Positions 24,578-35,257 of a stretch of 35,401 nucleotides of DNA are shown in pieces. The translations under genes and the position numbers were made by a program. The stretch's first letter is position 1. The number at the start of each line of letters is the position of its first letter. The notes below the pieces were generated by a model, which worked only from the letters and a program-made list of their open reading frames with translations, was not told the DNA's origin and searched no databases. The stretch covers positions 1 through 35,401 of the forward strand of contig JAJPRE010000016.1 of the NCBI GenBank assembly GCA_023700245.1, read 5' to 3'. Source of the DNA: Candidatus Thalassarchaeaceae archaeon (GTDB taxonomy: Archaea > Thermoplasmatota > Poseidoniia > Poseidoniales > Thalassarchaeaceae).

Positions 24578-26071
24578 ATGGATTTGGGAAATAATGAGCG
24601 TTTAATGCTACGTCTAATGCTTTCTAATCCTAATGAGACTTGGGAAATGAGTAAATTGCTTGATGGTACTGGGCTAACAGATCAAGTGCATATAGCAGGA
24701 GCAGGAGAATACCTCAAACAACAGGGTCTTTTAGTTGTAAATGAAACAATATTGACCAATATTACTTTAGGTTCTGAAGGAAATAAATCTATTGAAATAG
24801 GGCTATTGGAACTTCGTTTATGGAACTATTTATTATCGCTGAAAAATGAAGATAGAACTATGAAGAACCTTATTAATTCAGATTTTGAAAGATATGAAAC
24901 TGGCCCTGGAGTTGGTATTTTAAAGGGCCTTGGAGTGAATATCGAAGCCGGAATATTTACAACTCCTGATGACTCTCTAGTAACTTTAAAGATAGATGAT
25001 AGAGTTTCATTTTTAAATAAGATTAATCAAGAAAATGTCAAATCAGGAGATTTAGATAAAAATATGATAAAACATTTTTCATCTCGAAAAAATCTCATTC
25101 AAATTGAAGAATCAGTACATAGAAACTGGAAATTAACAGATAAAGGTGCTAAATATGATTCAAAAGGGCTCGATGTAATAGAATTAATAGGTGAAATAAC
25201 TCCTGAATTACTCCAAGGAGATTCTTGGAAAAATATGAAATTTAAACCGTTTGATGTCAATGCACCAGCCCCTACTCCTGCTGGGGGCAGACCACATCCT
25301 ATGCAATCTCTAATTGAGAGAATAAGATCAGTTTTTCTTGAAATGGGATTTTCTGAGATTGAAGGCGACTATGTTCAATCCGCAGGGTGGAATATGGATG
25401 CTTTATTTATACCTCAATCACATCCTGCAAGAACTATGCAAGACACATTTTATTTATCCAATCCTGATAAAATTGAAGTTGATGAAAAATATTTAGATTT
25501 ATGGGCTAATGTTCACGAACATGGTCACGATACTGGAAGTAAAGGTTGGGGCGCCGAATTTGATAAAGAAGAATCAAAAAAAGCACTATTGCGTACTCAC
25601 ACTACTGTTAATACTGTCCGACACATAGCCAATAATCCAGATTTGCCAAGTAAAGTATTCGGAATAGGGCGAGTCTTTCGTCAAGAAACAATAGATCGAA
25701 CGCATCTCCCCGAGTTCCATCAGATAGAAGGAATAATCCATGAACCTAATGCAAATTTATCTATGTTAATTTCTACATTGAAGACTTTTTATTCAAAAAT
25801 GGGATATCCTGATGTTAGGGTGAGGCCAGCCTATTTTCCTTATACTGAGCCAAGTGTAGAAGTCGATATCTTATGGAGGGGAGAGTGGTTAGAATTAGGT
25901 GGAGCGGGTATTTTTAGGCCCGAAGTAACCGAACCATTAGGCACCGAATGGCCCGTTTGTGCTTGGGGAATGGGTTTAGAACGTCTAGCTATGCTAATAC
26001 TGGATCTCGATGACATACGTCAATTGTATCAGCCAGATTTGGAACGCCTTCAGCAAATGCCTCTGATTTAA
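24578..26071 (+). CDS. pheS: Phenylalanyl-tRNA synthetase alpha subunit
   Basis: The catalytic subunit of PheRS. An N-terminal winged-helix part precedes the class II core: motif 1 region HPMQSLIERIRSVFLEMGF (about 240-258), HPARTMQDTFYL (about 284-295), motif 2 FGIGRVFRQETIDRTHLPEFHQIEG (about 363-387) and motif 3 GMGLERLAMLILDLDDIRQLY (about 467-487). The 497-residue length is that of archaeal PheS. The beta subunit gene pheT does not follow. CTTCGG lies 17 bases before ATG 24578. Its last 83 bases overlap the opposite-strand YHYH gene. Confidence 0.96.
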   Translation: MDLGNNERLMLRLMLSNPNETWEMSKLLDGTGLTDQVHIAGAGEYLKQQGLLVVNETILTNITLGSEGNKSIEIGLLELRLWNYLLSLKNEDRTMKNLINSDFERYETGPGVGILKGLGVNIEAGIFTTPDDSLVTLKIDDRVSFLNKINQENVKSGDLDKNMIKHFSSRKNLIQIEESVHRNWKLTDKGAKYDSKGLDVIELIGEITPELLQGDSWKNMKFKPFDVNAPAPTPAGGRPHPMQSLIERIRSVFLEMGFSEIEGDYVQSAGWNMDALFIPQSHPARTMQDTFYLSNPDKIEVDEKYLDLWANVHEHGHDTGSKGWGAEFDKEESKKALLRTHTTVNTVRHIANNPDLPSKVFGIGRVFRQETIDRTHLPEFHQIEGIIHEPNANLSMLISTLKTFYSKMGYPDVRVRPAYFPYTEPSVEVDILWRGEWLELGGAGIFRPEVTEPLGTEWPVCAWGMGLERLAMLILDLDDIRQLYQPDLERLQQMPLI

Positions 26072-28283
26072 ATCTTGAAATAATTACAATTCCAGAAATT
26101 ATCATAAGAATTCCAGTGATTGGTGGAATCTTGCCATAATATCCTGTCAAGAGTCCTGTTTCTGCATCCATTTGAGGTCCGCCACATCCCTCAGGAGGGG
26201 GTCCTATTCCCGGCCCCCATGTTTCACCGTGTCCTGCACAAGGATCACTATCTTCTCCTCCTTCGCCACCACTCTCGTTTGGAACTTCACCTCTATAACA
26301 ATTAATAAAATAAGGGAAACCGATACCTCCTTCGCCATTTTCCCACGTAGTATGATAATGGTATGTACCATTTGGATATTCAGGAGTTGGGCCAAATTGG
26401 CCATTACATGAATCTAAATCTCCCAAGCCAGAAATATATTCGTAATCATCAATTCCATTATATCCGTTTGAACCGTTTTTTAATTTATATGAAGAAGTCA
26501 TTTCCTTTATATTTCCATTTTCATCCCAGCCAACGAATCCATAGATTGGGTATCCATCAAATGCAAATCCTACAATTCCTGAATGCTCACTCAGGGTTCT
26601 TGAGGAATTGATTGAATAGTCTTCCCAAGTCTGATTTTCCTCGGCATGCCAATGTACACAATTACTATCTGCATGATAATGATACTCTCCTCCGGGGCCA
26701 CTATGGCCATGACAAATACCTAGCCAGATCTGTTGTCTATCTTCTTCATATGCGCCTTCTTGGCCTGCTATTGCATCCCCTCCCGGTCCATCTTCAGGTC
26801 CGTAAATTGCAATTCCGTTGACTGCAAAAGCAATCGAGCCTCTCTCTGGAGCCATTGTACAACCGTTAGTAGAGATATTTGGGTTGCAATCTGTGTCATT
26901 GGTTGGCTCTATTGGTATGGTATAAGAAGTAGTTTGAGCACTAGTGCAACACCCTGGCCCCGATTCAAAATCATGATTAGGTAATCCGTTTGTGGAAATA
27001 GTTATATTTCCTGAATCAATTATGAAACTAACATCACATTGATGATTATCATCTTGGCTTGTATTGTAATCATCAACTCCAGAAACTTCTTCCTCGTCAC
27101 AAAATAATATTTCACTCCACCATTCTGAACTAACGGGCCCATTCTCCAAGGGATAAGAAACATTTCCTAGTTCCTGATTTTCTTTAATCCAATCAACTAC
27201 GTGTTGAAATACACGGTCGGATTTGTTCGGGGGTTCATGTGCAGCATCTCCAATGAGGTGAGTAGAATTTGAGAAAATATCTGCAACTTCTGCAGACCCA
27301 TATCCAAACCACTCATCATTTTCACCTTCAAATATCAATGCTGATTCTAGGAATGGAGTTTGATCTACAATAGTATCCATCAGGCCTTGATGGGCAGTTT
27401 CTAAATATCCATTCATTAGAATCACTTTATCAAATACTATATCTGAATGAGCAAGATATATGATTGACATAGCAGCACCTTGCGAGTATCCAAGGATGGC
27501 ATTAAATGGTCCATTTTCCATAATATATGAATCCAAATATGAAATTGACTGATTAGCCCAATCAGGATCTATAGTCCCTTCTTCTTTTCCACCGGGGGCA
27601 TCTCTTATCCAAACTCCATCAGATTCCGGGGTCTGAGGGAAATAGAAATCGTACTCCGGTAATGCTTCCATAAGGTCTTGTATCCCATCGTTAGACTGCA
27701 ATGAAGCCGCACTCCCTCCACCACCATGTAAGGCAAGAATCTTTAGTGTTTGATTTGCAGAGTAAGTACAAGAGCCATCATCTTCATTTGCTTCTAAATT
27801 ATAATTTAATGCTGTTGAATCTAAGCATCCAAGAACTGAATTATTACTATCATTATCTGCATCACCCTCATCTCCATCTTCTTCTACTAGATCAGCTATA
27901 ATGCTGATTATTGACATCCAAATTGTTTGCTGTCCAATGTCATCAATGGCAGTAATTTTTAGTTTATGATTTCCAATATCTAAGTCACTTATACTAATAA
28001 CAATACTCCAACCAAGCAATTCTGAATTTTTCAACAAATTATCCGTTAGATTATCATTAATAGTTATGTCAATTTTTAAAGTATTTATATCCTCATCAAA
28101 TACTGTAAAGAATATCAAACCAGCATCTGATAGAAATATATCTGCCTCTATATCCCCGTTTATAGAAGGGGCATTATTTACTTCTATTATATCTCCTCCA
28201 TTAGAAGTTAAACACCCTGAGAATACGCTCATAATCATCAAGGTCGATATAACGAAAGATATGCTGACTAACTTACTTTCCAT
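25989..28283 (-). CDS. Secreted lipoprotein fusing an FSH1-like serine hydrolase to a YHYH domain
   Basis: A 764-residue exported multidomain protein. In order: signal with lipobox SVFSGC (Cys24); an Ig/cadherin-like region (about 36-130); the acidic CLDSTALNYN...DDGSC motif (153-172); an alpha/beta hydrolase of the FSH1 type (about 180-370) with nucleophile GYSQG (Ser267), Asp323 and His349; a Cys-rich spacer; a YHYH domain (about 425-665) with CHGHSGPGGEYHYH (524-537), HWH (544-546) and a second YHYH (641-644); then a transmembrane helix (about 718-737) and a 27-residue tail. All catalytic residues of the hydrolase are present. The histidine clusters of the YHYH domain suggest metal binding (inference). 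It lies 81 bases after the SCO operon, with a possible own promoter. Confidence 0.8.
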   Translation of the reverse strand: MESKLVSISFVISTLMIMSVFSGCLTSNGGDIIEVNNAPSINGDIEADIFLSDAGLIFFTVFDEDINTLKIDITINDNLTDNLLKNSELLGWSIVISISDLDIGNHKLKITAIDDIGQQTIWMSIISIIADLVEEDGDEGDADNDSNNSVLGCLDSTALNYNLEANEDDGSCTYSANQTLKILALHGGGGSAASLQSNDGIQDLMEALPEYDFYFPQTPESDGVWIRDAPGGKEEGTIDPDWANQSISYLDSYIMENGPFNAILGYSQGAAMSIIYLAHSDIVFDKVILMNGYLETAHQGLMDTIVDQTPFLESALIFEGENDEWFGYGSAEVADIFSNSTHLIGDAAHEPPNKSDRVFQHVVDWIKENQELGNVSYPLENGPVSSEWWSEILFCDEEEVSGVDDYNTSQDDNHQCDVSFIIDSGNITISTNGLPNHDFESGPGCCTSAQTTSYTIPIEPTNDTDCNPNISTNGCTMAPERGSIAFAVNGIAIYGPEDGPGGDAIAGQEGAYEEDRQQIWLGICHGHSGPGGEYHYHADSNCVHWHAEENQTWEDYSINSSRTLSEHSGIVGFAFDGYPIYGFVGWDENGNIKEMTSSYKLKNGSNGYNGIDDYEYISGLGDLDSCNGQFGPTPEYPNGTYHYHTTWENGEGGIGFPYFINCYRGEVPNESGGEGGEDSDPCAGHGETWGPGIGPPPEGCGGPQMDAETGLLTGYYGKIPPITGILMIISGIVIISRFKSEAFAEGVPNLADTIDVCHRDPVLA

Positions 28284-28364: not shown

Positions 28365-29486
28365 TTATTCATTAGTTAAAGTTATTACATCCATGAAGAA
28401 GTTTTCTACATCCCAATTTACTCCTGAATAAGAAACTCTTTTATTCATATTTTTATCTATTATGTATGTGCTAGTTGAATGGCCAATCTCATATTCTCCA
28501 AGAGTCTCTGCGTGAGGATCTACTATTTCAGATATATTTTCATTATTTAGGTCATTTTTACTTACACAACTAATCCAATTATCATTAGGTCTTTCATATT
28601 CTTCATCGCACATGCAATGAGAACTAGTTCCAGATCCCATTATCCAACCATTGCCATTACAATCAATTCCCGGGGGAAGATTGCTGATGTTTGCATTACT
28701 TGCAACCCATGCTAAGTGAGTGCCCTTTGGTATGGATTTTGTATCAAAAATATCATTTTGAATCTTAATCCAACTATCATTTAATAAATCCCAATTATGT
28801 AATTCCCAAGACCAATTGTCATTACTTTTCCATTCGCCAATAGATCCTTCCGACATATTATAAAATCCATCTGTATTTTGATTAAATGAATAATTTGCAA
28901 AATCATCTAAGTCTAAATAGCAACTAGAATCTTGTAAATTCCAACATTTACTATCTGATTTAAATGATGAATTATCTGGATTCAATACGGCAAATCTTAA
29001 CAGGTCTGCTTCAGGTGCTAAACTACTGGCAATATGGTCATTATCAACAACTACATTCCAAGTATTCCATACATCTTCTATTACTGAACTAGTTTCATGC
29101 GTCAAATGATTCCATTCATACCCCATTCTTTTAGTCCATTCGGAAATATGGGGGACGGTATCTCTTGCCGGATCAATTGTAATTGATAGTATCACTACAT
29201 CATCGGAATATTCTCCTAAATTATTATGAATATAGTCTAAATTTGCAGAAATAATTAAGCAAACATCGGGGCATGTTGTATAAATGAATGCAACGACTAT
29301 TACTTTACCTTCATAATCAGAAAATGTAACTAAATCTCCAAATTGGTTCGTGAGAGTAAAGTCAGGCGCCAGAGGCGGGTCCTTGTACTCTGTTCCTAAT
29401 ATTTTTGAATTTTCGTTGCCACCAACGCATCCCGAAGAAATTAAGATAATTACTATAAATATTGATAAAATAGGTTTTTTGTTCAA
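28365..29486 (-). CDS. SCO1/SenC-family lipoprotein with about 175-residue insert
   Basis: SCO proteins are membrane-anchored thioredoxin-fold copper chaperones for cytochrome oxidase CuA and other copper proteins. Here: lipobox ISSGC (Cys20), PDFTLTNQFGDLVTFSDYEGKVIVVAF (41-67), copper ligands CPDVC (72-76) and the ligand His in EIGHSTSTYIID (H336). Between residues about 150 and 325 is a large insert absent from ordinary SCO proteins (usual length about 200), with aromatic/Asn-rich sequence and an EGF-like CNGNGW...CMCDEEYE (276-297) with further Cys307. TTG start at 29486 is supported by AGGTGA upstream and by the signal peptide. It follows the other SCO gene by 10 bases. Confidence 0.86.
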   Translation of the reverse strand: MNKKPILSIFIVIILISSGCVGGNENSKILGTEYKDPPLAPDFTLTNQFGDLVTFSDYEGKVIVVAFIYTTCPDVCLIISANLDYIHNNLGEYSDDVVILSITIDPARDTVPHISEWTKRMGYEWNHLTHETSSVIEDVWNTWNVVVDNDHIASSLAPEADLLRFAVLNPDNSSFKSDSKCWNLQDSSCYLDLDDFANYSFNQNTDGFYNMSEGSIGEWKSNDNWSWELHNWDLLNDSWIKIQNDIFDTKSIPKGTHLAWVASNANISNLPPGIDCNGNGWIMGSGTSSHCMCDEEYERPNDNWISCVSKNDLNNENISEIVDPHAETLGEYEIGHSTSTYIIDKNMNKRVSYSGVNWDVENFFMDVITLTNE

Positions 29487-29496
29487 TTAAAGTCAC

Positions 29497-30225
29497 CTAT
29501 TCTTCTACTAAAAGCAAGATGTCTTCCATGACTAAATCGGGATTCCATAGCGTGTCTTCCCACCATACTCTTTGGTTCATATTTTTATCAACAATTATTG
29601 TTCCTGTTGTATGATCCACCCAATAAGATAACAATGGATGGTGATTTACTTGTACGTCGCCCTCTTCAGTTTGTTGAGTATCAATTCCGCATCCATCGCC
29701 ATCTACTTCTTCCCCTTCAGGAGTTTCAGCACACACATCAAAACCGTCTGCAACTCCGTCTCCATCAATATCTGAGTCGTAAGTTTGTAATCCAACGTCA
29801 AAATTCTTCCACACTGGCTCTAAATCTTCAACAGTCCCAGTCAAATGTGGCCATCCTAGATTTCTTGCACCAGCATAGTCGTTCATGACTGATGTATTGT
29901 CAGTCCAAGGATCAACGGTTATTGTCAGAATTACTACTTCCTCTTCATATATGTCTCCAAGTTGCTCTGAAATAAAATCTAGATTTGCACTAACTATTGG
30001 ACAAACATCTGGACATCTAGTAAATAAAAATGCGATAACAATTACTTTTCCTTCTAATTGAGAAAGCTGATAATACTCTCCGTCTCCGTCCATTAATATG
30101 AAATCTTCAGCAGGTATTGGAGGATTGATATCATCTCCATAAAATATATCTGTATCTTCGGAACTAAGACATCCAGGTGAAACTAAGAGAATCGAAAATA
30201 TAATTATAAGGAATTTATTTTCCAT
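29497..30225 (-). CDS. SCO1/SenC-family lipoprotein with type-3 thrombospondin-like insert
   Basis: Second SCO copper chaperone-like protein. Lipobox VSPGC (Cys19), EDFILMDGDGEYYQLSQLEGKVIVIAFLFTRC (40-71), CPDVC (71-75), ILTITVDPWTDN (99-110) and the ligand His in WVDHTTGTIIVDKN (H205); an extra HH pair lies at 195-196. Between the conserved helix and this His is a calcium-binding TSP3-like repeat, DSDIDGDGVADGFDVC (150-165), then DGDGCG. The insert is at the same place as in the downstream SCO protein. ATG at 30225, one base after the stop of the small His-terminal gene, so co-transcribed. Confidence 0.9.
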   Translation of the reverse strand: MENKFLIIIFSILLVSPGCLSSEDTDIFYGDDINPPIPAEDFILMDGDGEYYQLSQLEGKVIVIAFLFTRCPDVCPIVSANLDFISEQLGDIYEEEVVILTITVDPWTDNTSVMNDYAGARNLGWPHLTGTVEDLEPVWKNFDVGLQTYDSDIDGDGVADGFDVCAETPEGEEVDGDGCGIDTQQTEEGDVQVNHHPLLSYWVDHTTGTIIVDKNMNQRVWWEDTLWNPDLVMEDILLLVEE

Positions 30226-30226
30226 A

Positions 30227-30784
30227 TCAATCCCTTTTCTTTCTGCTTACAAACAATCCAGTTATAATAATTGCCAATAGGCCTATCTGATATATGTTTG
30301 CTATTTCAGATTCTTCACTATTTTCCTCATTAGTCTGTTCGTTATTAAATGAATAGTCAGAAGGCGCAGCTAAGTCAAGACTAGATGCCTCGGTATGATT
30401 ATCTAATGATATTACTAAACTAAGTGTATTCCATAATGTTCCATTGGACATTATTTTAACTTCATAATCTCCTGATTCCCATTTACCAGGTTCTAGCCAA
30501 ATACTGCATTCATCAGTAATCGAAGATGTATTTGATGGTCCTACTTCGCAACTGATATCGTCCTCTCCATCTCTATTACTATCGATTAGTATGGTTCTAT
30601 TATTTTCTGCAGCATTATAGAATATTATTGTACTATTATCTAATACTTGGGCCTCGGAAGGTTGTAAACTCTGATTTCTCATAATAAATGAGTATGAATT
30701 TGCTCCATGCCCAACAGCAGTCGGCATCAACATAATAATTACAATAATGGCAGAAAGCGCCTTAAGGCAAGTCATTCTATTCAC
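30227..30784 (-). CDS. Small exported protein with predicted N-terminal His and C-terminal membrane anchor
   Basis: 185 residues: signal peptide (about 8-25) with cleavage expected after AVG, so the mature chain would start HGANSYSF. The middle part (about 30-125) is beta-rich with NSTIIFYN, DSNRDGEDD (possible Ca site), two Cys (CEVGPSNTSSITDEC) and WLEPGKWESGDYEVKIMSNG, faintly cupredoxin-like. A Glu/Asn linker leads to a transmembrane helix (about 162-179) and KKRD. It resembles the product of the divergent gene at 34661. Mature N-terminal His is a copper ligand in CopC-type proteins; here that is inference. GTG at 30784 overlaps the propeller stop (GTGA); ATG 30775 is an alternative. Confidence 0.65.
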   Translation of the reverse strand: MNRMTCLKALSAIIVIIMLMPTAVGHGANSYSFIMRNQSLQPSEAQVLDNSTIIFYNAAENNRTILIDSNRDGEDDISCEVGPSNTSSITDECSIWLEPGKWESGDYEVKIMSNGTLWNTLSLVISLDNHTEASSLDLAAPSDYSFNNEQTNEENSEESEIANIYQIGLLAIIITGLFVSRKKRD

Positions 30785-32754
30785 TCTTCATCCATTAAAT
30801 CAAGCCAAAGTGGTGGATAATCATACCTTGGATCATAATCTTCATCAAACTGAATTACGTAAATACCAGAAACCATCTCTGAAACATATACGAATCCTCT
30901 TGGATCATATTGTAATCCCCAATCAAATGGTATCATACATGATGCCCAACAATCTGCCATATCATATCCTAATACTTCTGTTGCATTATCTATCCACGGT
31001 GGTCCTGCGGGTAAATAATAGCCTACGGTACGAGTTTCTGCTAATTCTTCAATCGCCTGAAATCCTCTGCCAGGTTCAGGTACTCCGTTTTCCCATACTA
31101 TGTCGTCCCATATTTCTCCATGGTCAGTCATCCATGCCCCAGCATGATAGTGAGTATAGTAAACGTGCCCAGATGGTCCAGTGTCCCCATTATGTGGACT
31201 GAAGATATATCCATCAGGAATATAATGTTGAGGATGACTTCCGTTCGCCTTCATCCCTTCGCCCGGGAGTCTCCATTTTGACACTAAGAACGGCTGAGTT
31301 GGATCAGTTGTATCGATTGTCCAAATGTATCCTGTATGATTTTCATTGGAACCATATTCTGGTGCAATGTATGTATAGTGCCTCCAATTTTCTCCATATA
31401 ATGGATCTTCAAAGCCAGTACCGCAATGTGCTGGCCATTCTTCTACTAAATCGAATGTGCTTATACCGGAACAAATTAAGTAATCATTTGGAACTGCATA
31501 ATGTATGTTATCGTTTCCTTGATTTGAATCGAGCCATTCTTCAGGTGACATGTTAGCATGGCCGCCACCCTCTGGGCCGTACCATCCTTCATCTGCAGAG
31601 GCGCAACCCATCCATCTTCCTACTTCAGGAGGCCATGTTATTCCTTCTGGATCAGCTATTACTGGTGGTTCTGAAACATCTACAAGTCTCAAACCTGCTC
31701 CCCAATAAGATGCCGCGAGTAATCTCTGTTGAGTTATGGGATGAACGAAGTAAACATGATCGTGGTTGAAAATTGATCCTCCACATGTAGTGTAAGGCTC
31801 TGGAGTGTAACCGCCCCATCGTATAATCTCACGACTAGAATTAGATTGTTCTTCATTTTGATTTGGAAGCCATGATTCAATTCCTCTTGGTACATAGAAA
31901 ACCTGTGTTCCTTTGTAAAATGTACCACTTCCCCCCTCAATCATTTCTGGATATGGATCAGCACCGAATAAAAATAAACTACATTCTTCTGTTGGATCTA
32001 CTGCACCTTCCCAGTTACAATACACGGCTAAATCTTGATTGTGGAATCCTGCTGGCGGATTATTCCATTCAGCGACTTTAATGGGACTTGTTTTATCTCC
32101 AACATATAGTACATCAAGTCTATTGGCCCCACTATTTGCATCATCATCATTTGGTATTGGATCCAAGTCACTATTGGTTAACTCGTGATTTACTAAAACC
32201 CAGTTATTATCTTTTGTGACTTTAATGTCGATCATTCTTGCGATTTCTGCATAATATGTGGACATTAATACAATGTCATTAGGGTTACTGATATCTAATA
32301 TCTCTAATTGGTTATAGCTAGAAACATATGCATAACATCCACCTGAATTATCTGGGTATTTTACACAATCTTCTTCAAAATTACCTTCAATTGCTATTTC
32401 AGAATTATCTCCGGGAGTTGGTCCAGTGTTTTTGAAATCATCATCACATGGCCGTCCCGCAACATTGTCTAACTCTGGAGGTGGACTTACATTACCATCA
32501 CAATTCAAATTATGATAATCAATCAATTTCACATTGGGTGTGGATAAACGATGTGCTAATAAGTCATTATGAGAATGATTTTCATTCTCTATCTCAATAA
32601 CCGGATCAATCCAAGAATTACTCATATCAGTATCTTCATTATCATCATTTGAAAAGGATAGGCATCCAGAAAGAGGGGCCATGACCATTAATGAAATCAT
32701 TATTGCTAAAGGTAATTTATTTACTACGCTCATGAATGGGGCCCTACGCGCCAT
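30781..32754 (-). CDS. LVIVD-type beta-propeller lipoprotein (second of pair)
   Basis: A large exported propeller. Start uncertain: ATG 32754 (MARRAPFMSVVN) or 32733 both give a signal with lipobox APLSGC; the TTG at 32802 has no ribosome site. The numbering here counts from 32802 (Cys47). LVIVD-like blades: AYVSSYNQLEILDISNP (158-174), YWGAGLRLVDVSEPP (366-380) and the last blade GFVYVSEMVSGIYVIQFD. Histidine motifs GFHN (254), NHDH (347), FSPHNGD (537) and YHAGAW (553) recur at matching places in the upstream paralogue. Many Cys suggest disulfides. Acidic linker after the lipobox (HSHND). The gene overlaps or abuts both neighbours. Metal-binding or redox role is inference. Confidence 0.78.
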   Translation of the reverse strand: MARRAPFMSVVNKLPLAIMISLMVMAPLSGCLSFSNDDNEDTDMSNSWIDPVIEIENENHSHNDLLAHRLSTPNVKLIDYHNLNCDGNVSPPPELDNVAGRPCDDDFKNTGPTPGDNSEIAIEGNFEEDCVKYPDNSGGCYAYVSSYNQLEILDISNPNDIVLMSTYYAEIARMIDIKVTKDNNWVLVNHELTNSDLDPIPNDDDANSGANRLDVLYVGDKTSPIKVAEWNNPPAGFHNQDLAVYCNWEGAVDPTEECSLFLFGADPYPEMIEGGSGTFYKGTQVFYVPRGIESWLPNQNEEQSNSSREIIRWGGYTPEPYTTCGGSIFNHDHVYFVHPITQQRLLAASYWGAGLRLVDVSEPPVIADPEGITWPPEVGRWMGCASADEGWYGPEGGGHANMSPEEWLDSNQGNDNIHYAVPNDYLICSGISTFDLVEEWPAHCGTGFEDPLYGENWRHYTYIAPEYGSNENHTGYIWTIDTTDPTQPFLVSKWRLPGEGMKANGSHPQHYIPDGYIFSPHNGDTGPSGHVYYTHYHAGAWMTDHGEIWDDIVWENGVPEPGRGFQAIEELAETRTVGYYLPAGPPWIDNATEVLGYDMADCWASCMIPFDWGLQYDPRGFVYVSEMVSGIYVIQFDEDYDPRYDYPPLWLDLMDEE

Positions 32755-32779
32755 TGACGAAAGCCAATCAATGTTAAAT

Positions 32780-34636
32780 CTAATTGCCATATGGTCTGTC
32801 AATATCTAATTGAACTATGTATAATCCTGTGGTTATACAAGAGAGATAGGTGTACCCTTCATGATATTCAGCAGCCCAAATAAATGGAGTCCATCCAAAA
32901 TCATAATATGAACTATCCAAAGGTTCACCATCGCCTGCATGGGAGATGTGATATCCAACTGTGGACTCTGCATGAACTGCCGTTTTGTTTCCGTCTGAAA
33001 GGCCAGCCATCATCATAGTTTCTATGTCAATTACCCATAGTCCTGCGTGGTAACTTGAAAGATATATTCTACCGTCCCAAGCTCCTCCATGACTATTGTC
33101 GGGATATCCTGGAAGTCCAGTTGTGAATATCTCTATATCTGCATTATGAGGGCTAAATAGTAACCATTCTTCTCCCCCTGGGATATGATGATCTTCAGCA
33201 AATGGTATTTCCCAGCCATGAATTAACTTAGGCAGGAATCTGATATTTCCATTATAAAATTCATAGTCTGTAGTATCTAAAAGGTATGACATTCCAGTAC
33301 CGACAGTCGTATCTAATACCTCTGTAGAAAGTAAAGTCAAATGCATTTTTCCAGCCGGATAACCAAGGTGACTTGCATCAACCATATCATCAACAGGTTC
33401 TGCATAATGGATGTAAGAAGCCCTTCCTCCATTTTCATTACCTGTAGTCCCGCTGTCAGGCTGTCCATCGCCATCAAAGTCTTCAAAATCCATCCATAAT
33501 CCTACTTCCGGGGCTCTCCAATTACATCCCAATTGAGTTCCAATGGATACAACACACCCTCCAGCAATGAATGCATATTCGACAGGAGTGTTTTGCGGAT
33601 GAGGTACGTCGCTTACATCAAATATTCTGAGGCCAGCTTCCCAATATGCGCCATAGACATATGTTTTACCAAATCGAGGATCGTTTACATCATCGCCTGG
33701 CCATTTTTGAACTGTCATATCGTGAATATATATCCATCCTCCACGAGTACTTTCCCAAGAAACTTCAGCTTCTCCGACTTTCAATATTGTTGGATCATCT
33801 CCGAACCCATCAAAATTTAGATGAGCAATAGTTATTCCTCCACAAGCATCTCCTTGACCTACATCGCATTGTTCATATTCAGGGTTAGCAACAAAAATAT
33901 ACCATTCATTATCTATCATCTGAGTGTATAAATTGTGTGGGCCACTGGGATGATCTGCATCGTACCAAGCATCTACAAATGTAGGATTTTCTTTATCCGT
34001 AACGTCTACTAAAGTTACGGTAACTTGCGCTGGATCTCCCCATTCTCCAACATTAGGGTCAGCATTACCCGGGTCGACCAATTGATTTTGAACAATTACA
34101 TATTCTCGTCCATCATATTGTAAGTATTTGACATCTAAAACTTGAGTATTGGGATCAATATAGACTCCTTTGACAGTTGTATTGTAAGGATTAGTTACGT
34201 CTACAATGTGCATTTCACTCCATCCAGCAATATACGCATATGTATTACCATCTGGAGATTCAGCAACTTGGACTTCAGCATTACCTGGTGCTGTTAGAGA
34301 ATTGAAAGAAACTGGTTGAATATTATCAGTATATAGTACATGCTGACTTGCATTTCTATGATCATGTCCTTCATCTTGTAATAATGGATCAAGCATCACT
34401 GATTTAGAATTACTGACTTCGTTATCTTGACTTATTAACAAAATCGCACTCATACTTGCAGCTAACAAACACACTACAAGTCCAGATGCTAGTAATATTT
34501 GTCTCATCACATATTTGTCTCTTGTTAAGAACTCCGGAGAGAAATCTTCGTCTGAACCTTCTCCGTCAGAGTTCGTGTTAACTCGGTCAACTGCCGTTGT
34601 ATCCATTATGGGGGCGAGTAGGCGAGTCATGTTCAA
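32780..34636 (-). CDS. LVIVD-type beta-propeller, N-terminally membrane-anchored (first of pair)
   Basis: 618 residues. A cytoplasmic acidic N-terminus (about 1-43), one transmembrane helix (about 47-69), a linker GHDHRNASQH (90-99), then an LVIVD propeller: AYIAGWSEMHIVDVTNP (134-150), TVTLVDVTDKENP, YWEAGLRIFDVSD (331-343), SSYHAGLWVIDIE and the final TYLSCITTGLYIVQLD. His motifs GPHN (234), IHD (305), FSPHNAD (497) and YHAGLW (530) match the downstream gene. A calcium-type DFDGDGQPD lies at 386-394. The TTG at 34636 has GGAG 7 bases upstream; ATG 34630 is an alternative. First gene of a five- or six-gene minus-strand run of exported proteins. Confidence 0.78.
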   Translation of the reverse strand: MNMTRLLAPIMDTTAVDRVNTNSDGEGSDEDFSPEFLTRDKYVMRQILLASGLVVCLLAASMSAILLISQDNEVSNSKSVMLDPLLQDEGHDHRNASQHVLYTDNIQPVSFNSLTAPGNAEVQVAESPDGNTYAYIAGWSEMHIVDVTNPYNTTVKGVYIDPNTQVLDVKYLQYDGREYVIVQNQLVDPGNADPNVGEWGDPAQVTVTLVDVTDKENPTFVDAWYDADHPSGPHNLYTQMIDNEWYIFVANPEYEQCDVGQGDACGGITIAHLNFDGFGDDPTILKVGEAEVSWESTRGGWIYIHDMTVQKWPGDDVNDPRFGKTYVYGAYWEAGLRIFDVSDVPHPQNTPVEYAFIAGGCVVSIGTQLGCNWRAPEVGLWMDFEDFDGDGQPDSGTTGNENGGRASYIHYAEPVDDMVDASHLGYPAGKMHLTLLSTEVLDTTVGTGMSYLLDTTDYEFYNGNIRFLPKLIHGWEIPFAEDHHIPGGEEWLLFSPHNADIEIFTTGLPGYPDNSHGGAWDGRIYLSSYHAGLWVIDIETMMMAGLSDGNKTAVHAESTVGYHISHAGDGEPLDSSYYDFGWTPFIWAAEYHEGYTYLSCITTGLYIVQLDIDRPYGN

Positions 34637-34660
34637 ACCATCGCTCCTTTACGGTGGAAT

Positions 34661-35257
34661 GTGAGACGAGGACTTATATCATTCTTCATTGTATCAATTA
34701 TGCTATTAATTCCATTAAATGTTCAAGCGCATGATCCTAAAAATTACACTATTCTCTTATTTGAAGATGGGCCAACTCCCGAAGGAGTAGTCCCTGGAAT
34801 ACTAGTTGAAAATGACTCTTTATTTGTTAGAAATCATGATTCTCGAGAAAATTTCAGTCATCGTTTGCAAGTTGATTTGGATGGAGATGGAAGTTTTAAT
34901 GGAATCGACGATTATGAGACAAATTGGCTCAACTCATCATGCGAATTAAATGAAACCGGAATTAAGATAGATAATAATTGCAATGCACATGAAGTAATTC
35001 TATTGTCTGTTGATAATGGCTTTCTTCAAGGCAATATATCTATCTTACATCAAGTTAGATTTGAAGGCAATATAACGGAATACGATTTCTATGTTAATTT
35101 TGGAGAAGATGTCCACATTCCCTCCAATGATCCGCCTATTGGGGCTGAAGAAACTTCAGCAGGTAGAGATGTTAGTTATCCATTAATTTTATTATTAATT
35201 GTCTCAGTTGTTGGTATATTATTTATAATTCCACAATTAACTAAATCCAATGAATGA
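34661..35257 (+). CDS. Small exported protein with predicted N-terminal His, paralogue of the one at 30.2 kb
   Basis: 198 residues. Signal peptide (about 5-22) with cleavage after VQA, leaving a mature HDPKNYTILLFEDG. A beta-rich domain has NDSLFVRNHDSRENFSHRLQVDLDGDG (a His pair and a Ca-type DLDGDG), two Cys (SCE, NNC) and SVDNGFLQG; then a linker and a C-terminal helix (about 172-190) ending KSNE. The order of features (His terminus, VRN/FYN strand, acidic DxDGDG, two Cys, tail anchor) matches the gene at 30227. GTG at 34661 is the only reasonable start. It is divergent from the first propeller gene by 24 bases. Confidence 0.65.
   Translation: MRRGLISFFIVSIMLLIPLNVQAHDPKNYTILLFEDGPTPEGVVPGILVENDSLFVRNHDSRENFSHRLQVDLDGDGSFNGIDDYETNWLNSSCELNETGIKIDNNCNAHEVILLSVDNGFLQGNISILHQVRFEGNITEYDFYVNFGEDVHIPSNDPPIGAEETSAGRDVSYPLILLLIVSVVGILFIIPQLTKSNE

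Follow-up and report, generated by a model that had tools for sequence, protein, structure and literature searches.

Which task falls to two small proteins that, once freed of their signal peptides, would each begin with a histidine, and that are encoded within and beside a row of genes for beta-propellers and SCO1-type proteins? The question is raised by a contig of a Candidatus Thalassarchaeaceae archaeon (JAJPRE010000016.1 of GenBank assembly GCA_023700245.1), all 35,401 nucleotides of which are referred to below as the window; it makes up an entire contig of a draft genome of 1.47 Mb that is 82% complete, and Thalassarchaeaceae, Marine Group II and Poseidoniales are the names borne by its named relatives. 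On the minus strand the genes follow one another in the order LV2, LV1, A, SCO2, SCO1 and an esterase+YHYH fusion, LV1 and LV2 being the propeller proteins. Protein A, the partner of LV1, is encoded inside this row (30227 to 30784, minus strand), and protein B, the partner of LV2, divergently at its head (34661 to 35257, plus strand). Both open reading frames (ORFs) are confirmed at the positions reported in an initial annotation of this DNA, whose statement that the two "bracket the operon" was loosely worded, as it fits B, which lies outside, and not A, which is internal to the row.

The answer that we favour, which we regard as plausible while still short of probable, is that A and B are metal proteins of a His-brace-like kind, anchored in the membrane, that probably act as Cu(II) chaperones or supply the propellers with metal. 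Putative metal binding by both proteins is likely, as judged from their conserved residues, and the proposed site gains credibility because a second conserved His/Asp motif accompanies the amino-terminal histidine. We infer from these data that the residues described below form a metal site, that copper is what they bind and that the role is that of a chaperone rather than another one.

The amino-terminal histidine and its companion residues

Cleavage was predicted by a simple heuristic that asks for a charged start, a hydrophobic core and small residues at −3 and −1; it cuts A after TAVG, leaving HG, and B after NVQA, leaving HD, in agreement with the initial annotation. The mature His1 thus corresponds to His26 of A (codon at 30707 to 30709, minus strand) and His24 of B (34730 to 34732, plus strand), and is invariant among homologues of both, with 81/81 sequences for A. 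Two starts are equally possible for A, a GTG at 30784 and an ATG 9 bases further at 30775. Whole-protein homologue searches in 98 relatives gave matches in 60 genomes for A and 71 for B, and the same His cleavage site was present in 60 of 60 extracted loci. The claim that His1 is conserved rests first on these 60 matches, because a larger homologue set, with His at +1 in 80/80 A and 58/58 B, was gathered partly by a peptide pattern that contains the histidine; in this larger set residue −1 is always A, G or S, and residue −3 always A, V, S or T. As a baseline, the same heuristic was applied to 652 ORFs from 800 kb of two relatives, where none of 57 signal-like proteins had His at +1. Members from the sister family and from a class mate keep the mature His1 as well, and a census found it in 164 of 164 sequences.

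Direct BLASTP comparison of A with B gave no similarity (E 16), but alignment of their homologue profiles by hhalign gave a probability of 99.5% (E 5e-23) over the full length and still 96.4% (E 1.1e-9) for the mature domains, from which signal and anchor had been removed. The latter alignment spans His1, both cysteines and the sequence up to a histidine in the tail, and searches with the B profile also retrieve A within the same genomes. Judged from these profiles, A and B are distant sister branches of one family with shared ancestry, which upholds the paralogy proposed in the initial annotation.

The residues kept without exception are, in mature numbering, H1, R11, P17, N32, C54, D66, C68 and W93 in A, D103 and H105 being nearly so, and H1, D29, D37, D49, C71, C84, D127 and H129 in B, where H44 is nearly so. 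D103 and H105 of A belong to a tail D-x-H motif (D128-N129-H130 of the precursor; 30395 to 30403, minus strand) right behind the last predicted strand (E91-101), and D127 and H129 of B to its counterpart (D150-V151-H152; 35108 to 35116, plus strand), which likewise comes after the last predicted strand. This second invariant histidine, mostly within D-x-H, goes beyond what the initial annotation had seen: the tail His is present in all of the census sequences bar one with masked bases, and D/E-x-H in 158/164, the six exceptions being two masked sequences and four with a larger Asp-His spacing. Near-invariant H44 (His67 of the precursor; 34859 to 34861, plus strand) is a trait of B in the Thalassarchaeaceae; the LV2 partners of the sister family have another residue at this position. 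These partners (L143, L144, L145, L146, L189 and L192), in which H44 is lost, carry an extra C-F-G-x-G-C in the linker ahead of the anchor, and the A-type proteins of one lineage (L135, L138, L139 and L140) have about 100 more residues after D-x-H, possibly a second beta domain.

Each family has an invariant pair of cysteines, as had been noted for the two window proteins: C79 and C93 in A (30506 to 30550, minus strand), a probable disulfide, and C94 and C107 in B (34940 to 34981, plus strand). An acidic DxDGDG-like site had been ascribed to both proteins; it is clear in B, where an EF-hand-like acidic loop occurs in 57/57 sequences, and the A protein of the window has a degenerate version (DSNRDGEDD). 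Hydropathy places a hydrophobic C-terminal anchor at residues 161-179 of A (30248 to 30304, minus strand) and 175-193 of B (35183 to 35239, plus strand), with Kyte-Doolittle values of 2.1 and 2.9, so the anchors described earlier are also borne out. N-glycosylation sequons are many in the small proteins.

Such features could also belong to proteins that anchor the propellers or form structural subunits of them; His1 and the tail His would then be kept for protein contact, processing or folding, calcium would be bound by the DxDGDG loop, and there would be no transition-metal function at all. The acidic loop, the Cys pair and the sequons agree with this explanation, as do the strict pairing with propellers described below and a model of B that resembles a generic beta sandwich. 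We nevertheless think it unlikely, since invariance exactly at +1, next to variable small residues at −1 and −3, is what a functional N-terminus typically shows, no structural reason is evident for the second invariant His/Asp motif, and His1 and the tail motif are both kept in all diverged branches of the family.

Predicted fold and relation to known metal proteins

Structure models were computed for A from 81 sequences and for B from 57. Both are mainly beta, as the initial annotation had foreseen in describing a short beta domain. The model of A is an eight-stranded beta protein with a predicted local distance difference test score (pLDDT) of 85.0 and a predicted template modelling score (pTM) of 0.74; its best match in the PDB by Foldseek is the Cupredoxin_1 structure 4hcf (E 3.6e-6, probability 1.00), followed by CuA domains, two-domain laccases, EfeO, plastocyanin and the Nitrosopumilus purple cupredoxin, with moderate TM-scores of 0.5 by query and up to 0.71 by target. 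A is thus modelled with a cupredoxin-like fold. For B (pLDDT 85.6) the cupredoxin assignment rests on homology to A, because its own structural matches are poor. Of the two folds, cupredoxin or CopC, that the initial annotation had put forward as a check, the former is seen in the model of A; that of B has no clear fold match.

Both termini of cupredoxins usually sit at the pole opposite the type-1 copper site. A shares its predicted fold with Cupredoxin_1, plastocyanin and CuA domains, but no type-1 ligand series (His...Cys-x(n)-His-x(n)-Met) occurs in either A or B: the last two strands come after both cysteines, there is no Cys/His/Met loop ahead of the last strand, the candidate metal residues would lie at the opposite pole, and the Pfam cupredoxin families are unmatched. 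A role of A or B as a blue-copper electron carrier was rejected because the type-1 ligands are absent.

The types of the candidate ligands recall CopC (PF04234), which binds Cu(II) through His1, Asp83 and His85 (PMC7529816), and to which A and B correspond in mature His1, in D-x-H and, for the model of A, in a cupredoxin-like fold. Unlike in CopC, however, where D-x-H precedes the last strand, the motif follows it in A and B, whose domain is also longer and carries the DxDGDG loop, the Cys pair and the C-terminal anchor. The CopC profile of Pfam has no match at E 0.1 among 57 B and 81 A sequences and none at E 0.5 in 5 further members, and profile-profile comparison gives hhalign probabilities of 9.5% for A and 0.3% for B, in line with the earlier remark that the two do not look like standard CopC. 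CopC was not found in the window's own genome.

An architectural parallel is YcnI of Bacillus subtilis (DUF1775, PF07987), in which a signal peptide, His1, a cupredoxin fold and a C-terminal transmembrane helix are combined, and Cu(II) is bound by a mono-His brace (PMC8424229). A is predicted to share all four of these features; B agrees in signal peptide, His1 and C-terminal anchor, the fold match of its model being weak. In YcnI the brace includes a Glu, whereas A and B have a conserved second His together with Asp; YcnI sits in a copper operon and has the CopC-CopD importer as its partner, where A and B have a beta-propeller (PMC8424229). The DUF1775 profile matches none of 143 A/B members, nor any protein in 145 genomes of the phylum, the window's own included. 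A and B may hence work like CopC or YcnI, yet are not members of these families because the corresponding Pfam profiles are unmatched; Pfam scans and profile comparison together reject membership in standard CopC, YcnI, cupredoxin and LPMO families.

A His-brace suggests a further comparison, namely that A and B are themselves copper oxygenases of the kind found among lytic polysaccharide monooxygenases (LPMO) or PmoB, with the propellers as substrate-binding partners. PmoB was the sole metalloprotein retrieved by a PDB profile search with A, and aligned at the strand after His1; the E value of 0.22 is not significant, and a relationship to PmoB was rejected on this ground. In addition, the LPMO, X325 and PmoB profiles of Pfam have no match in the A/B family, and PfCopC, which has an Asp ligand, acts as a chelator and is not reduced by ascorbate (PMC7529816), all of which makes an oxygenase hardly credible.

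A further question is the choice of metal. The N-terminal-His proteins discovered by signal strapping, whose metals are Ni, Zn or Cu (PMC12537917), likewise unite a signal peptide, a conserved His directly behind it and a beta-sandwich, with a membrane anchor in some cases (DUF4198, DUF6702, Ang-1 and Ang-2). These families are mostly bacterial and tied to permeases or nickel genes, whereas A and B are archaeal and paired with LVIVD propellers. The same N-terminal-His site might then hold another metal (Ni, Zn or Fe) or capture metal from seawater, as in DUF4198 or the anglerases. Several signal-strapping families do prefer Ni or Zn, membrane-anchored anglerases exist (PMC12537917), and the row encodes envelope proteins, though no permease is fused or adjacent. 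Against this, two SCO1-type genes follow directly downstream in nearly all loci, D-x-H is the Cu(II) motif of CopC, and no gene for a metal transporter was noticed in the conserved neighbourhood; we deem this alternative quite unlikely.

Partner genes and their distribution

LV2 (32780 to 34636, minus strand) and the lipoprotein LV1 (30781 to 32802, minus strand) are beta-propeller proteins with LVIVD repeats recognized by Pfam. The true start of LV2 possibly lies inside its ORF, for example at Met44 (34507), and the stop of LV1 and the GTG start of A share an overlap of 4 bases. The two propellers are paralogous to each other, and the Thalassarchaeaceae copies are 68-98% identical to those of the window and far more conserved than A and B. 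LV1 and LV2 share ten histidines that essentially every copy retains, as would be expected of metal-binding propellers, and from their sequences both look like uncharacterised metalloenzymes. No structural relatives of LV1 or LV2 were found in the PDB. An assignment to the SBP56 methanethiol oxidase family (PF05694) was also tried and rejected, as neither the propellers nor 60 genomes of the phylum gave a Pfam match.

LV2 is present in 71/293 genomes of the phylum, all of one class, the Poseidoniia, and the B profile has matches in 76 of the 293, two of which are weak and fall in unrelated large proteins. Within this phylum sample the small-protein family is confined to the class Poseidoniia. 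The two weak matches (L187 and L188, bits 18-20), which come from another family of the phylum, were judged to reflect chance or convergent signal-peptide similarity. The proteins concerned (L187:1623-4490 and L188:849-4184) are large surface proteins of another Thermoplasmatota family, and their post-signal start, AHEDGLFAI, makes them candidates for an N-terminal His in their own right.

At the head of all 70 full-length LV2 genes lies a B-family gene that runs on the opposite strand, and in 65 of the 70 pairs just 42-154 bases separate the matches. In the Thalassarchaeaceae the row LV2-LV1-A-SCO2-SCO1 with divergent B is constant in about 80 loci, while in the sister family LV1 and LV2 stand apart, each with its own divergent small partner, and in the class mate LV2 has one divergent partner. 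A quick tree, made with no formal test, unites the Thalassarchaeaceae A proteins in one branch and groups the LV2 partners of the sister family with B; the LV1 partners of that family do not clearly join A. In one lineage (L138:3419-6184), genes for S-adenosylhomocysteinase and S-adenosylmethionine synthetase lie between B and LV2, which may point to methyl or sulfur metabolism, and longer B-LV2 gaps occur in L125, L131 and L140 too.

SCO2 (29497 to 30225, minus strand), which starts 1 base after the end of A, and SCO1 (28365 to 29486, minus strand) are lipoproteins of the SCO1/SenC family by Pfam. Their CxxxC motif is kept in 77/77 SCO2 and 73/75 SCO1 sequences. Both have inserts between CxxxC and the distal His, that of SCO2 containing a TSP3-like DxDGDG stretch and that of SCO1 being longer and Cys-containing. 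The 3′ end of the gene row is formed by the fusion of an FSH1-type esterase with YHYH (25989 to 28283, minus strand; Pfam FSH1 and YHYH), which was not found in many relatives and whose 3′ end overlaps a convergent PheS ORF by about 83 bases.

The nearest published gene arrangement is the mtoX-SCO1-mauG operon of the copper methanethiol oxidase MtoX, an SBP56 protein (PMC5739008). It resembles the present row in combining an exported enzyme, in that case a copper enzyme, with SCO1; it differs in that our propellers have no SBP56 match, no MauG was seen, and small N-terminal-His proteins are present instead. A literature search on LVIVD, YHYH and Marine Group II together with copper or SCO1 returned nothing on this operon.

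The SCO genes invite yet another interpretation, in which A, B and the SCO proteins would be assembly factors for the CuA or CuB centre of cytochrome oxidase, and the propellers unrelated passengers. In its favour, the window's two SCO genes are the sole ones found in its own genome, and COX2 is encoded in 46/59 relatives. COX2 lies elsewhere in the genome, however, wherever positions are comparable (for example in G007 and G060), and it was not found in the window's own draft genome, which is incomplete (82%). Moreover, the small proteins go with the propellers, to the point that separate propellers have partners of their own. We consider a dedicated role in oxidase assembly decidedly improbable.

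A proposed metal relay and its implications

How might A and B act as metal proteins of the propellers? Signal peptidase would expose the N-terminal His of A and B, whose amine and imidazole would join the D-x-H motif after the last strand in a surface metal site of the His-brace type, the metal being most likely Cu(II). Each propeller would be served by one small protein, LV2 by B and LV1 by A, which would probably hold the metal or pass it on to the propeller, and the two SCO proteins would act as further copper-handling or reducing factors.

This proposal is backed by an invariant His1 set against the empty baseline, the tail His, the ligand types of CopC and the pairing with propellers, as well as by the cupredoxin matches of the A model, the YcnI-like architecture, the SCO genes and the ten propeller histidines; the absence of CopC and DUF1775 from the window's own genome was also counted in its favour. 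Several points weigh against it. That His1 would lie near D-x-H in space is argued only from the usual placing of cupredoxin termini, the stretch that holds His1 has a mean pLDDT of 79, and beyond residue 101 of A the tail drops to about 50-65. The B model has poor matches, to phage baseplate proteins and laccases, at a TM-score of about 0.4, and the Asp-to-His spacing is altered in 4/164 homologues. Finally, the SCO proteins may also serve cytochrome oxidase, because so many relatives encode COX2 elsewhere.

From their sequences, A and B look like an undescribed kind of dedicated metal, probably copper, partner proteins. A bolder version of the proposal, which we regard as doubtful, is that the LVIVD propellers are metalloenzymes of a new kind, each metallated by its own dedicated N-terminal-His protein, throughout the Poseidoniia; in that protein a CopC-like ligand set would have arisen anew at the opposite end of a cupredoxin fold deprived of its type-1 site.

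Marine Group II archaea, an uncultured group, abound in surface sea water, and to our knowledge their use of copper is largely undescribed. An invariant family that is found class-wide, and always beside the same propellers, suggests a conserved extracytoplasmic metal process in these archaea. If the proposal is true, it would extend the N-terminal-His metalloproteins in archaea, and the A/B family would offer a compact test case for a cupredoxin-like fold that loses one metal site and gains another.

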